The notes beneath the pieces are model-generated. The model saw nothing but the letters and a program-made list of their open reading frames with translations, made no database searches and was not told the origin of the DNA. 64,000 nucleotides of DNA. Origin: Tractidigestivibacter montrealensis (lineage in GTDB: Bacteria > Actinomycetota > Coriobacteriia > Coriobacteriales > Atopobiaceae). How positions within the stretch are numbered: position 1 is the stretch's first letter; every line of letters starts with the position of its first letter. The stretch covers positions 124,001 to 188,000 of the forward strand of contig NZ_JANSKA010000003.1 of the NCBI RefSeq assembly GCF_024741235.1, written 5' to 3'. The position numbers were made by a program, and so were the translations under genes. Positions 59,682 through 64,000 of the stretch are shown piece after piece.

Positions 59682-60062
59682 CTATGCAGCCACCTGCTGG
59701 GCGAGAAGCACCGCGCCCATACCCAGACCGGCGCTCAGCATCACGTACGCAACGGCCACCAGAGGCTCGCCGCGCTGCACCAAGCCAACGCTTTCCAGCG
59801 CAAACGTCGAGAACGTGGTAAATCCACCACACACACCCACCTTGAGGAAGAGAACAAGGCGCGAGTCAAGTTCGTGACCTGCGGCAACGGCGGCAACGAT
59901 AAGCCCAATTACAAACGCGCCCACAATGTTGGTCACAAGTGTGGCTAGCGGGAATCCGGCATCGCCCACGCTCTTGAACGGGGCAACCGAGATGAGATAG
60001 CGTGCGAGAGACCCAAGGGCTCCCCCGGCGCAGACGGCAAGGCAATCGAGCAGCGCAGGCAT
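59682..60062 (-). CDS. crcB: Fluoride channel CrcB/Fluc
   Basis: The 126-aa, four-helix membrane protein exports fluoride. Family motifs: GGALGSLARYL, TNIVGAFVIG and the signature GVCGGFTTFSTFALE, whose two Phe residues line the fluoride path. It functions as a dual-topology dimer. ATG 60062 follows GAAGGGTCG. A fluoride riboswitch precedes it. In many bacteria two crcB genes occur together; only one is present here. Confidence 0.95.
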   Translation of the reverse strand: MPALLDCLAVCAGGALGSLARYLISVAPFKSVGDAGFPLATLVTNIVGAFVIGLIVAAVAAGHELDSRLVLFLKVGVCGGFTTFSTFALESVGLVQRGEPLVAVAYVMLSAGLGMGAVLLAQQVAA

Positions 60063-60279: not shown

Positions 60280-60309
60280 TTGCGGCGCGCGGCAAATCGG
60301 GCGTATAGT
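60280..60309 (+). promoter_or_regulatory. Sigma-70-type promoter of the trp-leader/ECF operon
   Basis: TTGCGG (60280-60285) and TATAGT (60304-60309) are separated by 18 bp. They lie 59 bp upstream of the leader-peptide start. The region 60168-60279 shows no other feature. Confidence 0.6.
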
Positions 60310-60367
60310 TCCCGACAACAAGCACAAGCCGCCCACGCGGCAGGAACTCACGAGAGGAGCGCCAGAG

Positions 60368-60448
60368 ATGAACCGCATCGCCACTAACGTCGCACGTATG
60401 TCCATGAACTGGTGGTGGCGCGATTCGCAAGCGGTCGGTCGATCGTGA
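60368..60448 (+). CDS. trpL: trp-type attenuation leader peptide
   Basis: A 26-residue ORF starts at ATG 60368 after GAGAGGAG and stops TGA at 60446-60448. It contains three consecutive Trp codons (60410-60418) in the local sequence M-N-W-W-W-R; three Trp in a row is far from chance in so short a peptide. Downstream the third Trp codon lies in an 8-bp arm, TGGCGCGA (60416-60423), that pairs with TCGCGCCA (60454-60461). A strong terminator at 60478 follows. This is the logic of ribosome-mediated trp attenuation, here in front of transporter genes, with no trp biosynthesis genes in the window. Confidence 0.85.
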   Translation: MNRIATNVARMSMNWWWRDSQAVGRS

Positions 60449-60477
60449 GTCTCTCGCGCCATAATTTCGCGAATTAA

Positions 60478-60512
60478 GAGGGCTCCCGGTTTGACCGGGG
60501 GCCCTCTTTCTT
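60478..60512 (+). terminator. Attenuator terminator of the trp leader
   Basis: GAGGGC and GCCCTC form the base of a stem whose inner part is CCCGG/CCGGG (one T and G unpaired), loop TTTGA, followed by TTTCTTG. It lies 29 bp after the leader stop codon. An alternative pairing of AATT (60463) with AATT (60472), plus GCC with GGC, could disrupt it. Confidence 0.85.
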
Positions 60513-60578
60513 GTGCAAGCACACCTTCCAAGCCATCCCAAACCACACCAGCGTCACCCAAGCAGAAAGGAACCAACC

Positions 60579-61151
60579 ATGTCAGAGAACACCAACACCC
60601 AGCAGGCCCGCACCGTCACCTCCAAGGACCACGGCAAGCTCGACGTTCGCGCCCTGGTGCTTCTCGCCGTGCTTCTCGCCGCCGGCTTCATCCTCAACTT
60701 CACCGTGGGGAAGGCAATCTCCAGCATCTCCGGCGGCATGATTAGCCCCGAGTTCATCATCTCGGCGTTCTGCCTTACCATCCTGGTCATTCGCCCCAAC
60801 GTCCCGCAGGCGCTGGTCATTGGCCTCATCTCCGCGGCCGTGATTCAGATCACCACCACCTCGCCCTTTGTCGACTTTGCCGCCGAGGGTGTGGCCGCCA
60901 TGCTCATGGCGATCATCGTGAGCGCCGGCATGCGCGGCGGCGCCAAGAAGGTCATCCCCGCCATCGGCACCTTCGCCACCACCGTTGTCTCCGGCGTCAT
61001 CTTCATGATCATCCGCATCGCAATGGTTGGCGCCGCCCAAGAGCTCGCCGCCGCCATGCTCCCCGTTGTCTTCGCGACCGCCATCTTCAACGCCATTCTC
61101 GTCCAGGCGCTCTACATCCCCGTGTGCAAGGCCCTCAAGGTCAACGACTAA
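60579..61151 (+). CDS. ECF transporter S component, first of two tandem paralogues (tryptophan-type, inferred)
   Basis: The 190-aa membrane protein has five to six helices typical of small ECF substrate-binding S components (LDVRALVLLAVLLAAGFILN; core LVLLAVLLAAGFILN; and TTVVSGVIFMIIRIAMVGAA). It resembles TrpP in length and layout. Substrate is suggested by the attenuator upstream, not by the protein itself. The ATG at 60579 follows AGAAAGGAACC. It should partner the ATPase and EcfT encoded downstream. The next gene encodes a paralogue. Confidence 0.8.
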   Translation: MSENTNTQQARTVTSKDHGKLDVRALVLLAVLLAAGFILNFTVGKAISSISGGMISPEFIISAFCLTILVIRPNVPQALVIGLISAAVIQITTTSPFVDFAAEGVAAMLMAIIVSAGMRGGAKKVIPAIGTFATTVVSGVIFMIIRIAMVGAAQELAAAMLPVVFATAIFNAILVQALYIPVCKALKVND

Positions 61152-61205
61152 CCGCCCGTCCGCAACCGTAGCCCTCACCAGCAGCGCAATCGAAAGGAAC
61201 CCACC

Positions 61206-61763
61206 ATGTCCGAGCAGAACGCATCCCAGGCGCGCACCGTCAACACCACCGAGCGCTCCGGCAAGGCCGACGTCTCCTCCCTCGTCCTTCTCGCCGTGCT
61301 TCTCGCCGCAGGCTTCATCCTCAACATGACCGTGGGCAATGCCCTTGCGATCGTGGGCATCAAGCCGCAGTTCATCATTGCCTCCTACGCGCTGGCGATC
61401 CTGCTCTCCAACGCCGGCTTTGGCCAGGCGGCCATCTTTGGCCTGGTCTCCGCCGCCGTCATCCAGCTCACCACTTCCATCCCCGGCCTCAACTTTGCAA
61501 CCGAGCTCGTCGCCGCGCTGGTGATGGCAGCCCTTATCCGCCGTCCCCTCAAGGTTGGCGGACGTGACGTCACCCCGCTCGTTGCGACCTTTGCGACCAC
61601 ACTCGTCTCCGGCGCGCTCTTCGCCGTGGCCGGCACGCTCATCATGGGCGCGGCCCTTGGCACCGTGGTCGTGAAAATCCCACTCGTCCTGGGCACCGCA
61701 GTCTTCAACGCAGTCGTGGTCCAGGCCCTCTACTTCCCCCTCAAGAAGGTCCTCAAGAAGTAA
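61206..61763 (+). CDS. ECF transporter S component, second tandem paralogue
   Basis: The 185-aa protein is similar along its length to the first S component: both begin with a short Gln/Thr-rich hydrophilic stretch, then VLLAVLLAAGFILN, and both have GLVSAAVIQ-like and PxxATFATT-like segments. They are a tandem duplication that has diverged. ATG 61206 follows GAAAGGAACC, an almost identical translation start. Each may bind a different ligand or the two may work together. Two palindrome copies lie between it and the ATPase gene. Confidence 0.8.
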   Translation: MSEQNASQARTVNTTERSGKADVSSLVLLAVLLAAGFILNMTVGNALAIVGIKPQFIIASYALAILLSNAGFGQAAIFGLVSAAVIQLTTSIPGLNFATELVAALVMAALIRRPLKVGGRDVTPLVATFATTLVSGALFAVAGTLIMGAALGTVVVKIPLVLGTAVFNAVVVQALYFPLKKVLKK

Positions 61764-61789
61764 GTTCGACTACGATAGTGAACCGCACG

Positions 61790-61818
61790 TGAGACAAAGG
61801 GACAGTCCCTTTGTCTCA
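61790..61818. repeat. 29-bp dispersed palindrome, copy 4
   Basis: TGAGACAAAGGGA and TCCCTTTGTCTCA flank CAG, a perfect copy 26 bp after the second S component gene. Confidence 0.9.
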
Positions 61819-61862
61819 CGCATAAGGCGGGGATTCACCTTGCCTCCACTCCAGCATTGACA

Positions 61863-61891
61863 TGAGACAAAGGGACTGTCCCCCTGTCTCA
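61863..61891. repeat. 29-bp dispersed palindrome, copy 5 (mutated)
   Basis: TGAGACAAAGGGA and TCCCCCTGTCTCA; the right arm has two T-to-C changes. It lies 73 bp after copy 4 and 12 bp before the ATPase start. Confidence 0.85.
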
Positions 61892-61903
61892 CGAAAGGCT
61901 CTT

Positions 61904-63724
61904 ATGACCGCACGGGAAGAAAAGCCAATCATCGAGATGAGCCATGTCACGTTCTCCTACGACGCGCCCGCCGAGGGTGCCGCCGAGAACAGCGAGGACG
62001 CCGCGCTGCGCGACGTGTCGCTGAGCATTGGCGAGGGCGAGTTCGTGGGCGTGATTGGCCCCTCGGGCGCCGGAAAGTCCACGCTTGCGTCCGTAATGTC
62101 GGGCGCCATCCCCCACCACTACCGCGGCGCGCTCTACGGCGCCACGCTGGTGGACGGGCACGACACCTGCGACGTGACGCTCACCGACATCTCGCAGGTG
62201 GTTGGCAGCGTCCTGCAGGACATCGACACCCAGATGGTGGCGTCGGTAGTCGAGGACGAGATGCTCTTTGGCCTGGAGAACTTTGGCGTCCCCCACGACC
62301 AGATCGAGGGGCGCATCGCCCAGACGCTTGAGACTGTGGGCATCTCCAACCTGCGCGAACGCGAGATAGCCACGCTCTCGGGCGGTCAGAAGCAGAAGGT
62401 GGCCATTGCCGCCATTCTCGCCATGCGCCCGCGCGTCCTGGTGCTCGACGAGCCCACAGCCGCGCTCGACCCCGCGTCATCGACCCTCGTCTTCGACACG
62501 CTGCGTAAGGTGCGCGAGGAGGGCGTCACCGTGGTGGTCATCGAGCAGAAGGTGGCGCTGCTCTCGGAGTACTGCGACCGCATCCTGGTGATGAGCAAGG
62601 GTTCGCTGGTGCTTGACGGCACACCGCGCGAGGTCTTCTCGCACGGCGACGAGCTGCGGCGCATTGGCGTCGACAGCCCGCGCGTGGCGCGCGTGTACAA
62701 CTCGCTTGCAAAGGACGGCCTGGTTTCGGGGGCGCCGTGCCTCACCGTGCCCGAGGCGGCGGAGGTCATAACAGGCCTGGTGCAGCCCGCGTCCAAGGCG
62801 AGCTGCCACGTAGCGAGCGCCGAGGAGGGGGCACGCGAGGCGGGCTTTCGCGCAGGCTCCAAGCACGTGGCCGCGCCGCGTCCGCACGCCGAGGGCGCCC
62901 AGCCCGTGGTGAGCCTTGAGGACGTGAGCTTTGCGTATCCAGGCGGGACGGCTTCCGTGGACCACCTGGACATGCGGGTGTATCCCGGCGAGGTCGTGGG
63001 CATCGTGGGCCAGAACGGCGCCGGCAAGACCACGCTCACCAAGCTACTCAACGGCCTGCTGCGACCGGCGTCGGGCACCGTGCTGATGGCCGGCCTCGAT
63101 ACGCACGAGGTTCCCACCAGCGCGATTGCCGCGCACTGCGCGACCCTCTTCCAGAACCCGGACTACCAGCTGTGCAAGGACACCGTTCTTGAAGAGGTCG
63201 CATTTGGCCTCACGTTGCAGGCCGTGGACGAGAAGGACGCGCACGAGCGTGCCGGTGCGGTGATTGAGCGCTTTGGGCTGTCTGCGGACGAGGCACCCTT
63301 CTCACTCTCGCGCGGCCAGCGGCAGATGGTGGCACTGGCGTCCGTGGTGGTGATGGAGCCGGAGGTGGTGCTTCTCGACGAGCCCACGAGCGGTCTTGAC
63401 TACCGCGAGTGCATGACCGTGATGGACACGGTGAGCGAGATGGCCGAGCGCGGCTGCGCCGTGATCATGGTCTGCCACGACATGGAGGTCGTCTCGGACT
63501 TTGCCGAGAGGATCGTGGTCATGGCAAACGGGCGCATCCTCGACCGCGGCGGCACGCTCGAGATGTTCTCCAACGCAAAGCTCATGCGGGAGGCAAGCGT
63601 GAGGGCGCCGCAGGTCATCGAGCTGTCCGGGGTTCTCGCACGCGATCTTTCACCTGAGTTTGCCGGTATCAGCCAGGTCTCTGGCATAGTCGACCTCACC
63701 GAGGAGATGGTTCGCCGTGGTTAA
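61904..63724 (+). CDS. ECF transporter tandem ATPase (EcfA-EcfA' fusion)
   Basis: The 606-aa protein contains two ABC ATPase domains. Domain 1: Walker A GPSGAGKST (residues 52-60), signature LSGGQKQK (about 157), Walker B VLVLDEPTAALD. Domain 2: Walker A GQNGAGKTT (about 366-374), signature LSRGQRQM, with Arg for Gly (about 467), Walker B VVLLDEPTSGLD. A linker (about 270-325) with LTVPEAAEVITGL joins them. It powers the S components upstream, through EcfT. ATG 61904 follows GAAAGG; an in-frame ATG at 61862 exists only because of palindrome copy 5. Confidence 0.92.
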   Translation: MTAREEKPIIEMSHVTFSYDAPAEGAAENSEDAALRDVSLSIGEGEFVGVIGPSGAGKSTLASVMSGAIPHHYRGALYGATLVDGHDTCDVTLTDISQVVGSVLQDIDTQMVASVVEDEMLFGLENFGVPHDQIEGRIAQTLETVGISNLREREIATLSGGQKQKVAIAAILAMRPRVLVLDEPTAALDPASSTLVFDTLRKVREEGVTVVVIEQKVALLSEYCDRILVMSKGSLVLDGTPREVFSHGDELRRIGVDSPRVARVYNSLAKDGLVSGAPCLTVPEAAEVITGLVQPASKASCHVASAEEGAREAGFRAGSKHVAAPRPHAEGAQPVVSLEDVSFAYPGGTASVDHLDMRVYPGEVVGIVGQNGAGKTTLTKLLNGLLRPASGTVLMAGLDTHEVPTSAIAAHCATLFQNPDYQLCKDTVLEEVAFGLTLQAVDEKDAHERAGAVIERFGLSADEAPFSLSRGQRQMVALASVVVMEPEVVLLDEPTSGLDYRECMTVMDTVSEMAERGCAVIMVCHDMEVVSDFAERIVVMANGRILDRGGTLEMFSNAKLMREASVRAPQVIELSGVLARDLSPEFAGISQVSGIVDLTEEMVRRG

Positions 63725-64000
63725 CGTGATTGACTACGTGCCGGGAGACACCCTGCTGCACCGGCTGAACCCCGTGACCAAGCTGGGCATTGCCGCGGCA
63801 ATCATCATTGCGATTTTCCTGGCCAACACCTACCCCATGCTGCTGGGGCTTCTCGTCCTCACCTTTGCACTGGGTGCCTACGCGCACACCACGTCCAAGC
63901 TGGTCTCGCTGCTCAAGCTGCTTGTGCCGCTGGCGGTGGTGATGCTGCTGCTTCAGACGGCGTTTGTGCGCGGCGGCGCGCCCGTGTTTGCATGGATGAC
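63717..64000 (+). CDS. ecfT: ECF transporter membrane coupling protein EcfT, 3'-truncated by window edge
   Basis: The frame starts at GTG 63717, overlapping the ATPase stop by 8 nt (GTG 63726 is also possible), and runs open to the last base. It begins with VIDYVPGDTLLHRLNPVTKLG, where LHRLNPVTKL is the hallmark of EcfT/CbiQ transmembrane proteins. Two to three hydrophobic helices follow. About 94 residues are visible; the coupling-helix motifs lie beyond the window. It completes the ECF transporter operon with two S components and a fused ATPase. Confidence 0.88.
   Translation, partial: MVNVIDYVPGDTLLHRLNPVTKLGIAAAIIIAIFLANTYPMLLGLLVLTFALGAYAHTTSKLVSLLKLLVPLAVVMLLLQTAFVRGGAPVFAWM

Follow-up and report, generated by a model that had tools for sequence, protein, structure and literature searches.

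The window, i.e., the whole 64,000-nucleotide stretch of Tractidigestivibacter montrealensis DNA analysed here, carries close to its 3' end an operon that encodes a transporter of the energy-coupling factor (ECF) type, preceded by a short leader. The preliminary description of this locus covered positions 60280-61763, which span the promoter region, the leader and two substrate-binding (S) components, S1 and S2; the operon extends further, to EcfT. The features are:

60280..60309, + strand: possible promoter, TTGCGG - 18 nt - TATAGT (spotted by eye, weak)
60354-60359, + strand: Shine-Dalgarno sequence GAGGAG, 8 nt 5' of the leader start codon
60368..60448, + strand: leader peptide ORF, 26 codons, MNRIATNVARMSMNWWWRDSQAVGRS; ATG start, TGA stop at 60446-60448
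60410..60418, + strand: sensor, three consecutive Trp codons; columns invariant across 53 aligned leaders
60416..60423, + strand: arm 1, TGGCGCGA, contains the third Trp codon; covaries with arm 2 (swap test, p=0.0001)
60437..60442, + strand: antiterminator 5' strand part a, GGTCGA (Gly-Arg codons); pairs with 60491-60496
60447..60452, + strand: antiterminator 5' strand part b, GAGTCT, overlapping the stop codon; pairs with 60480-60485
60454-60458, + strand: antiterminator tip UCGCG (first five bases of arm 2); alternative partner CGCGA at 60468-60472
60454..60461, + strand: arm 2, TCGCGCCA; exact complement of arm 1, covariation
60477..60507, + strand: intrinsic terminator hairpin, then UUUCUUGU; z -5.6, covariation
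60579..61151, + strand: S1, TrpP-like ECF S component, 190 aa; PF17099 E=4.6e-5, 23.7 bits
61206..61763, + strand: S2, TrpP-like ECF S component, 185 aa; PF17099 E=2.2e-7, 31.3 bits
61904..63724, + strand: fused EcfA-EcfA' ATPase; TIGR04520/TIGR04521 in two stretches
63717..64000, + strand: EcfT, 5' portion within the window; the whole 248-aa protein matches CbiQ/EcfT (PF02361, E=3e-26)

The family matches bear out the gene content proposed earlier, i.e., two tandem S components, a fused ECF ATPase and EcfT downstream of the leader. For the TrpP type, which the preliminary description had brought up, the outcome differs between the two S components: S2 scores above the gathering cut-off of PF17099 (TrpP; 27.2 bits) while S1 falls just below; among 16 relatives, 15 match this family at E<=0.001. 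No significant match was obtained when TrpP proteins of solved structure were searched for by sequence. In the structure predictions that had been called for, S1 and S2 both adopt the S-component fold, with ECF S components clearly ahead of all other matches (Z up to 16.2 for S1 and 16.1 for S2). The two proteins are about 50% identical to each other. A hairpin is found 3' of EcfT in the genome, which defines the operon as S1-S2-AA'-T, and this layout, where the S-component fold is combined with EcfA, EcfA' and EcfT in one operon, is that of an ECF transporter with a dedicated module (group I). Between S2 and the ATPase gene, at 61789-61819 and 61863-61892, there are two palindromic repeats, TGAGACAAAGGGACNGTCCCTTTGTCTCA; their core was found genome-wide 90 times in forward and 87 times in reverse orientation, with most sites counted on both strands. 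Similar palindromes are found at this gap in most congeners and a terminator-like hairpin occupies it in other genera (L109, L113); perhaps the intergenic hairpin sets the S-to-ECF ratio. At four loci (L045, L059, L062 and L064), S, EcfA and EcfA' are fused into one polypeptide of 803-880 aa, an unusual ECF architecture. On the minus strand, divergent from the operon, positions 59682-60062 encode a small membrane protein that has, by eye, the look of a CrcB-type fluoride channel.

The leader was described earlier as a 26-codon ORF with three consecutive Trp codons, which is borne out by the present analysis (ORF at 60368-60448, Trp codons at 60410-60418). A consensus promoter scan listed no promoter at 60280..60309. 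The combined pattern of three Trp codons (WWW), GGTC and TGAG occurs once in the 2.46-Mb window genome and not at all in a reversed control; neither the pattern search nor the covariance model built for the leader (R1) identified any further copy in this genome.

The 8-bp arm that had been noted around the third Trp codon (TGGCGCGA, 60416-60423) has a perfect complement in TCGCGCCA (60454-60461), and the strong terminator reported with it is confirmed both by folding, where the region 60458-60515 reaches -32.7 kcal/mol with a z of -5.6, and by covariation. The U-tract, UUUCUUGU, is weak and interrupted in the window genome, while most relatives have 4-7 consecutive Us; a pattern-based terminator scan of the + strand did not pick up the hairpin at 60477-60507. 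In an alignment of 53 leaders, 88.6% of the cells of the terminator and the 1:2 stem form pairs, double changes are seen at 15 of the 21 pairs, and the covariation is 0.316 as compared to 0.216 in shuffled alignments (reached in 0 of 500), while slid controls stay at or below 0.142. When the strands of the 1:2 stem were exchanged among 20 divergent leaders, the pairing was weakened (p=0.0001).

An antiterminator, which the preliminary description did not name, is proposed here to consist of three nested pairings, GGUCGA with UUGACC (60491-60496), GAGUCU with GGGCUC (60480-60485) and UCGCG with CGCGA, such that its 5' strand targets the 5' arm and the loop of the terminator. Folded alone, positions 60428-60498 form the antiterminator hairpin (-24.8 kcal/mol); upon addition of the 18 nt that hold the Trp codons, the 1:2 stem folds instead (-32.2 kcal/mol). 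The extent to which the 5' arm of the terminator is sequestered, calculated over 20 diverse leaders for the situation where the 3' arm has not yet been made, is 0.75 with a ribosome stalled on the Trp codons, 0.22 with a ribosome at the stop codon and 0.56 without a ribosome. With shuffled upstream RNA the value is 0.38, where the highest of 100 replicate means was about 0.45. For roughly half of these 20 relatives, the score obtained without a ribosome is near the stalled score, which indicates that the strength of the 1:2 stem is uneven.

When scored position by position, the antiterminator shows weak covariation (0.157 vs 0.140 in shuffled alignments, reached in 8 of 500), and double changes are not in excess; perhaps the sharing of these strands with the terminator and with the leader coding sequence limits their change. 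Because this measure is too weak to serve as the sole proof of an antiterminator, swap, shuffle and codon tests were also carried out. Strand exchange among the 20 divergent leaders weakens the antiterminator pairing (p=0.004). Among 57 distinct leaders, 56 have GGT as the Gly codon of the conserved motif, vs 8 of the 81 Gly codons in the operon, and the codon that follows is CGA in 43 leaders and CAA in 7 (together 50 of 57), where CGA accounts for 1 of 45 in the operon; the operons otherwise use GGC and CGC. This fixation against the codon usage of the operon implies that it is the bases rather than the residues that are conserved at the end of the leader. Furthermore, each of the 57 leaders has the GGT motif exactly 27 nt past its first Trp codon, in a search that allowed 24-30 nt. 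The preliminary description had made its proposal depend on a covarying antiterminator; an antiterminator is present, and the support for it is real, albeit weaker, also in terms of covariation, than that for the terminator and the 1:2 stem.

The region therefore displays a leader ORF with tandem codons, an intrinsic terminator, an antiterminator that excludes it and a 1:2 stem over the codons. From these elements, computed directly (the leader and its Trp codons, the stems, their conservation and mutual exclusion, and the identities of the genes), we consider it highly probable that the leader is a ribosome-mediated transcription attenuator, which would switch on an ECF importer of the TrpP type whenever charged tRNA-Trp runs short. 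At sufficient levels of Trp-tRNA, the ribosome would pass the three Trp codons and arrive at the stop codon, where it would cover GGUCGA...UGA-GUCU, the antiterminator's 5' strand, such that the terminator folds and transcription ends before S1. At low levels of Trp-tRNA, the ribosome would instead stall on the Trp codons, 21-27 nt 5' of the antiterminator strand, and mask arm 1, which prevents formation of the 1:2 stem and leaves the antiterminator strand free; the free strand would then capture the 5' arm and loop of the terminator, and transcription would continue into S1, S2, EcfAA' and EcfT. In the absence of translation, the 1:2 stem is expected to form first in the window genome, which would favour termination. 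Because a ribosome at the stop codon would yield termination and one stalled at WWW read-through, the operon would be induced by Trp starvation. In this scheme ribosome stalling, the efficiency of termination and the sign of the response are predictions, and Trp is the presumed substrate.

The leader is conserved well beyond this genome, as is the Trp signature on which the earlier proposal of a Trp attenuator was based: the Trp codons are kept in the homologous leaders. All three conditions named earlier for a refutation were addressed, and none went against the proposal. The window genome belongs to the Atopobiaceae (Coriobacteriia), with Tractidigestivibacter scatoligenes and Olsenella as the nearest relatives that carry a name. 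An S component is encoded in 69 of 140 genomes of this family, and in 64 of these 69 a WWW leader ORF (WW in one case) is found some 90-300 nt 5' of the first S gene; in the remaining genomes with the operon, two have a T-box instead and three (G008, G039 and G040) have an S gene with neither, i.e., with no recognisable leader. In another set of genomes, including Olsenella, Collinsella, Slackia, Thermophilibacter and Atopobium, where some strains overlap with the first set, the leader is present at 41 of 42 loci. All 64 strong matches of R1 in the family (E<1e-9) are located at TrpP loci. When the comparison suggested earlier was extended across Coriobacteriia, R1 matched 131 of 348 genomes, in 29 of 135 genera, where a few of the weakest matches are leaders of TrpB2 (see below); among weak matches (E 1e-4 to 1e-6) some are such leaders and others lack a Trp leader. 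At two loci (L055 and L056) the S gene has a similar terminator, GGCTCCCGGGTTGACCGGGAGCC, and no recognisable Trp leader ORF; this region is possibly a decayed attenuator. A copy 82% identical to S1, with no leader nearby, is found on a metagenome-assembled contig labelled Lachnospiraceae (L143), which may have been mis-binned or the copy transferred.

The weak R1 matches led to a second type of leader, located 5' of TrpB2 (NF009057/TIGR01415; L166-L194), which functions in indole salvage. A WWW or WW leader followed by a terminator is present at 28 of 30 TrpB2 loci, of which 24 were flagged by a script and 4 more are plain in the printed sequence; the other two (L193 and L195) have a UGG T-box instead. 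In a second family (f2, probably Eggerthellaceae), a WWW leader precedes a symporter of the SNF/NSS family at three loci (L196, L198 and L214) and carries the same conserved elements as the leader of the TrpP-ECF operon. The SNF family includes TnaT, which transports Trp. The leader logic of the TrpP-ECF operon recurs at TrpB2 and at the symporter, and its antiterminator folds in these leaders as well, with values of 0.66 in the stalled state and 0.26 with the ribosome at the stop codon. Trp biosynthesis loci (L154-L165) are preceded by T-boxes with UGG specifiers in all 11 cases scanned in the family (E 1e-9 to 1e-19 by Rfam, mostly under the gathering score); a search for Trp-leader attenuators 5' of trp biosynthesis operons yielded no convincing candidate, with T-boxes found there instead. 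Two congeners (G117 and G120) combine attenuators on TrpP-ECF and TrpB2 with a T-box on the trp operon. With fair probability, the TrpP-ECF and TrpB2 orthologues are under two unrelated sensors of one tRNA, a UGG T-box in some genera and a leader-peptide attenuator in others, and some cells, such as these two congeners, employ both devices together, the T-box for Trp synthesis and the attenuator for Trp uptake and indole salvage. Because one senses uncharged tRNA and the other ribosome stalling, their combination could order the responses to Trp shortage.

Other explanations of the leader were considered. One is a Trp-dependent arrest of the nascent peptide as in TnaC, where free Trp rather than uncharged tRNA would arrest the ribosome at the end of the leader. 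In its favour, the codons before the stop, which mostly encode Gly-Arg or Gly-Gln, are conserved, and the peptide has Trp residues further upstream, but the GGT, CGA and CAA counts given above place the conservation at the level of nucleotides, two leaders end within the GGT motif and the TrpB2 leaders have different ends. Three tandem Trp codons are also better matched by sensing of tRNA, and we therefore regard such an arrest as improbable. It is even more difficult to maintain that the ORF and hairpins are a product of chance or a relic, in an operon with constitutive expression or protein-based control. The imperfect U-tract of the window genome and the loss of the leader in a few relatives (L045, L055 and L056) are in line with such a view, but conservation, covariation and the constant spacing of the Trp codons in dozens of distinct leaders from several families make it exceedingly unlikely.

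The substrate is a separate question, for which the attenuator as described above can be combined with a different ligand. On the basis of regulation and family, the transporter would take up L-tryptophan, in agreement with the import of Trp proposed earlier. A search that covered trpA, IGPS and TrpB2 found none of these genes in the nearly complete 2.46-Mb window genome, which suggests that the organism is probably a Trp auxotroph that imports Trp; judged from its gene content, it very likely needs external Trp, and the lack of these synthesis genes fits import. Across the family, trpA is absent in 54 of 64 genomes with the leader vs 41 of 76 without it (p=1e-4, kinship ignored). Orthologous TrpP operons in two genomes (G068 and G074, the latter a clear TrpP with E=1.4e-13) have a UGG T-box in place of the leader, which constitutes an independent Trp signal for the substrate.

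Alternatively, the main substrate could be a precursor or derivative of Trp (indole, indole-3-pyruvate or another indole), or S1 could bind Trp and S2 another indole. This possibility, which we consider less likely, is linked to the history of the two S components. In a phylogenetic tree they form separate groups, each with distant genera (the deepest forks are poorly resolved), which indicates an old duplication that gave rise to ancient paralogues, retained in tandem across these genera. In one genome (G048) they are found apart, in two operons that both have a Trp leader (L039 and L065), i.e., S1 and S2 are each Trp-controlled in their own right. There are also near-fixed differences that change charge, E58 in S1 vs Q55 in S2 and M160 vs K157, which judged by position fall at the L1 loop and the start of helix 6, and TrpB2, which converts indole to Trp, carries the same kind of leader. 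These observations favour an indole or a second ligand, and binding of different ligands by S1 and S2, as suggested in the preliminary description, is possible. However, the conserved polar sites are mostly common to S1 and S2, which argues against two ligands, and in the window genome, without TrpB2, trpA and IGPS, indole alone would give no Trp by those enzymes.

When compared to known systems, the window leader gave only chance-level matches to sRNAs in an Rfam search at both gathering and relaxed thresholds (E up to 5); Trp_leader (RF00513) was unmatched at the gathering score and up to E=5, as was the T-box (RF00230), and the only two T-box matches in the window genome are weak, on contig C5 and elsewhere on contig C6. 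Within Actinomycetota, Trp attenuators were described on trp operons and trpS of Corynebacterium and Streptomyces (PMC1262725). These systems share with the present one the phylum, double or triple Trp codons, a GC-rich terminator with a U-tract and an alternative antiterminator, but their targets are biosynthesis and a tRNA synthetase, with no transporter reported in that survey of such genes; moreover, the conserved RNA elements are different here, and the biosynthetic operons are under T-boxes. The enterobacterial trp leader (RF00513) has the same tandem Trp codons and 1:2, 2:3, 3:4 pairing logic, whereas the present leader has uptake as its target, with a region 2 that extends over the stop codon and base-pairs with the loop of the terminator. 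According to a large survey, attenuator motifs of the Rfam type are essentially gamma-proteobacterial and are found on biosynthesis genes (PMC3766115). The UGG T-boxes that precede trp operons, TrpB2 and TrpP in other genera of Coriobacteriia respond to the same amino acid and tRNA and control orthologous targets, but they bind uncharged tRNA directly, without translation. A lineage-specific exchange between T-boxes and leader peptides is also known for His attenuators, which occur alongside or replace His T-boxes in some Firmicutes lineages (PMC9413887); there, the amino acid is histidine and the targets are his operons, while here the target is an ECF transporter. The likeness to TrpP (PF17099) comprises the family match, the S-component fold and the Trp-linked regulation, while the operon described here differs in that S1 is under the cut-off and in having a dedicated ECF module and two paralogues. 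In Bacillus, trpP is controlled by TRAP.

A literature search, with subscription journals mostly outside its coverage, did not reveal a Trp attenuator for any ECF transporter, nor one from Coriobacteriia. The mechanism as such is known, whereas the lineage is new and the regulon, which consists of transport and salvage, is unusual: a Trp attenuator that is linked to import and salvage rather than synthesis. For an S-component family that is widespread in gut bacteria of humans and animals, it offers strong regulatory evidence regarding the substrate class. Because two sensors of tRNA-Trp are found on orthologous genes, these organisms also provide a natural comparison in which the choice between a T-box and a leader peptide becomes testable.
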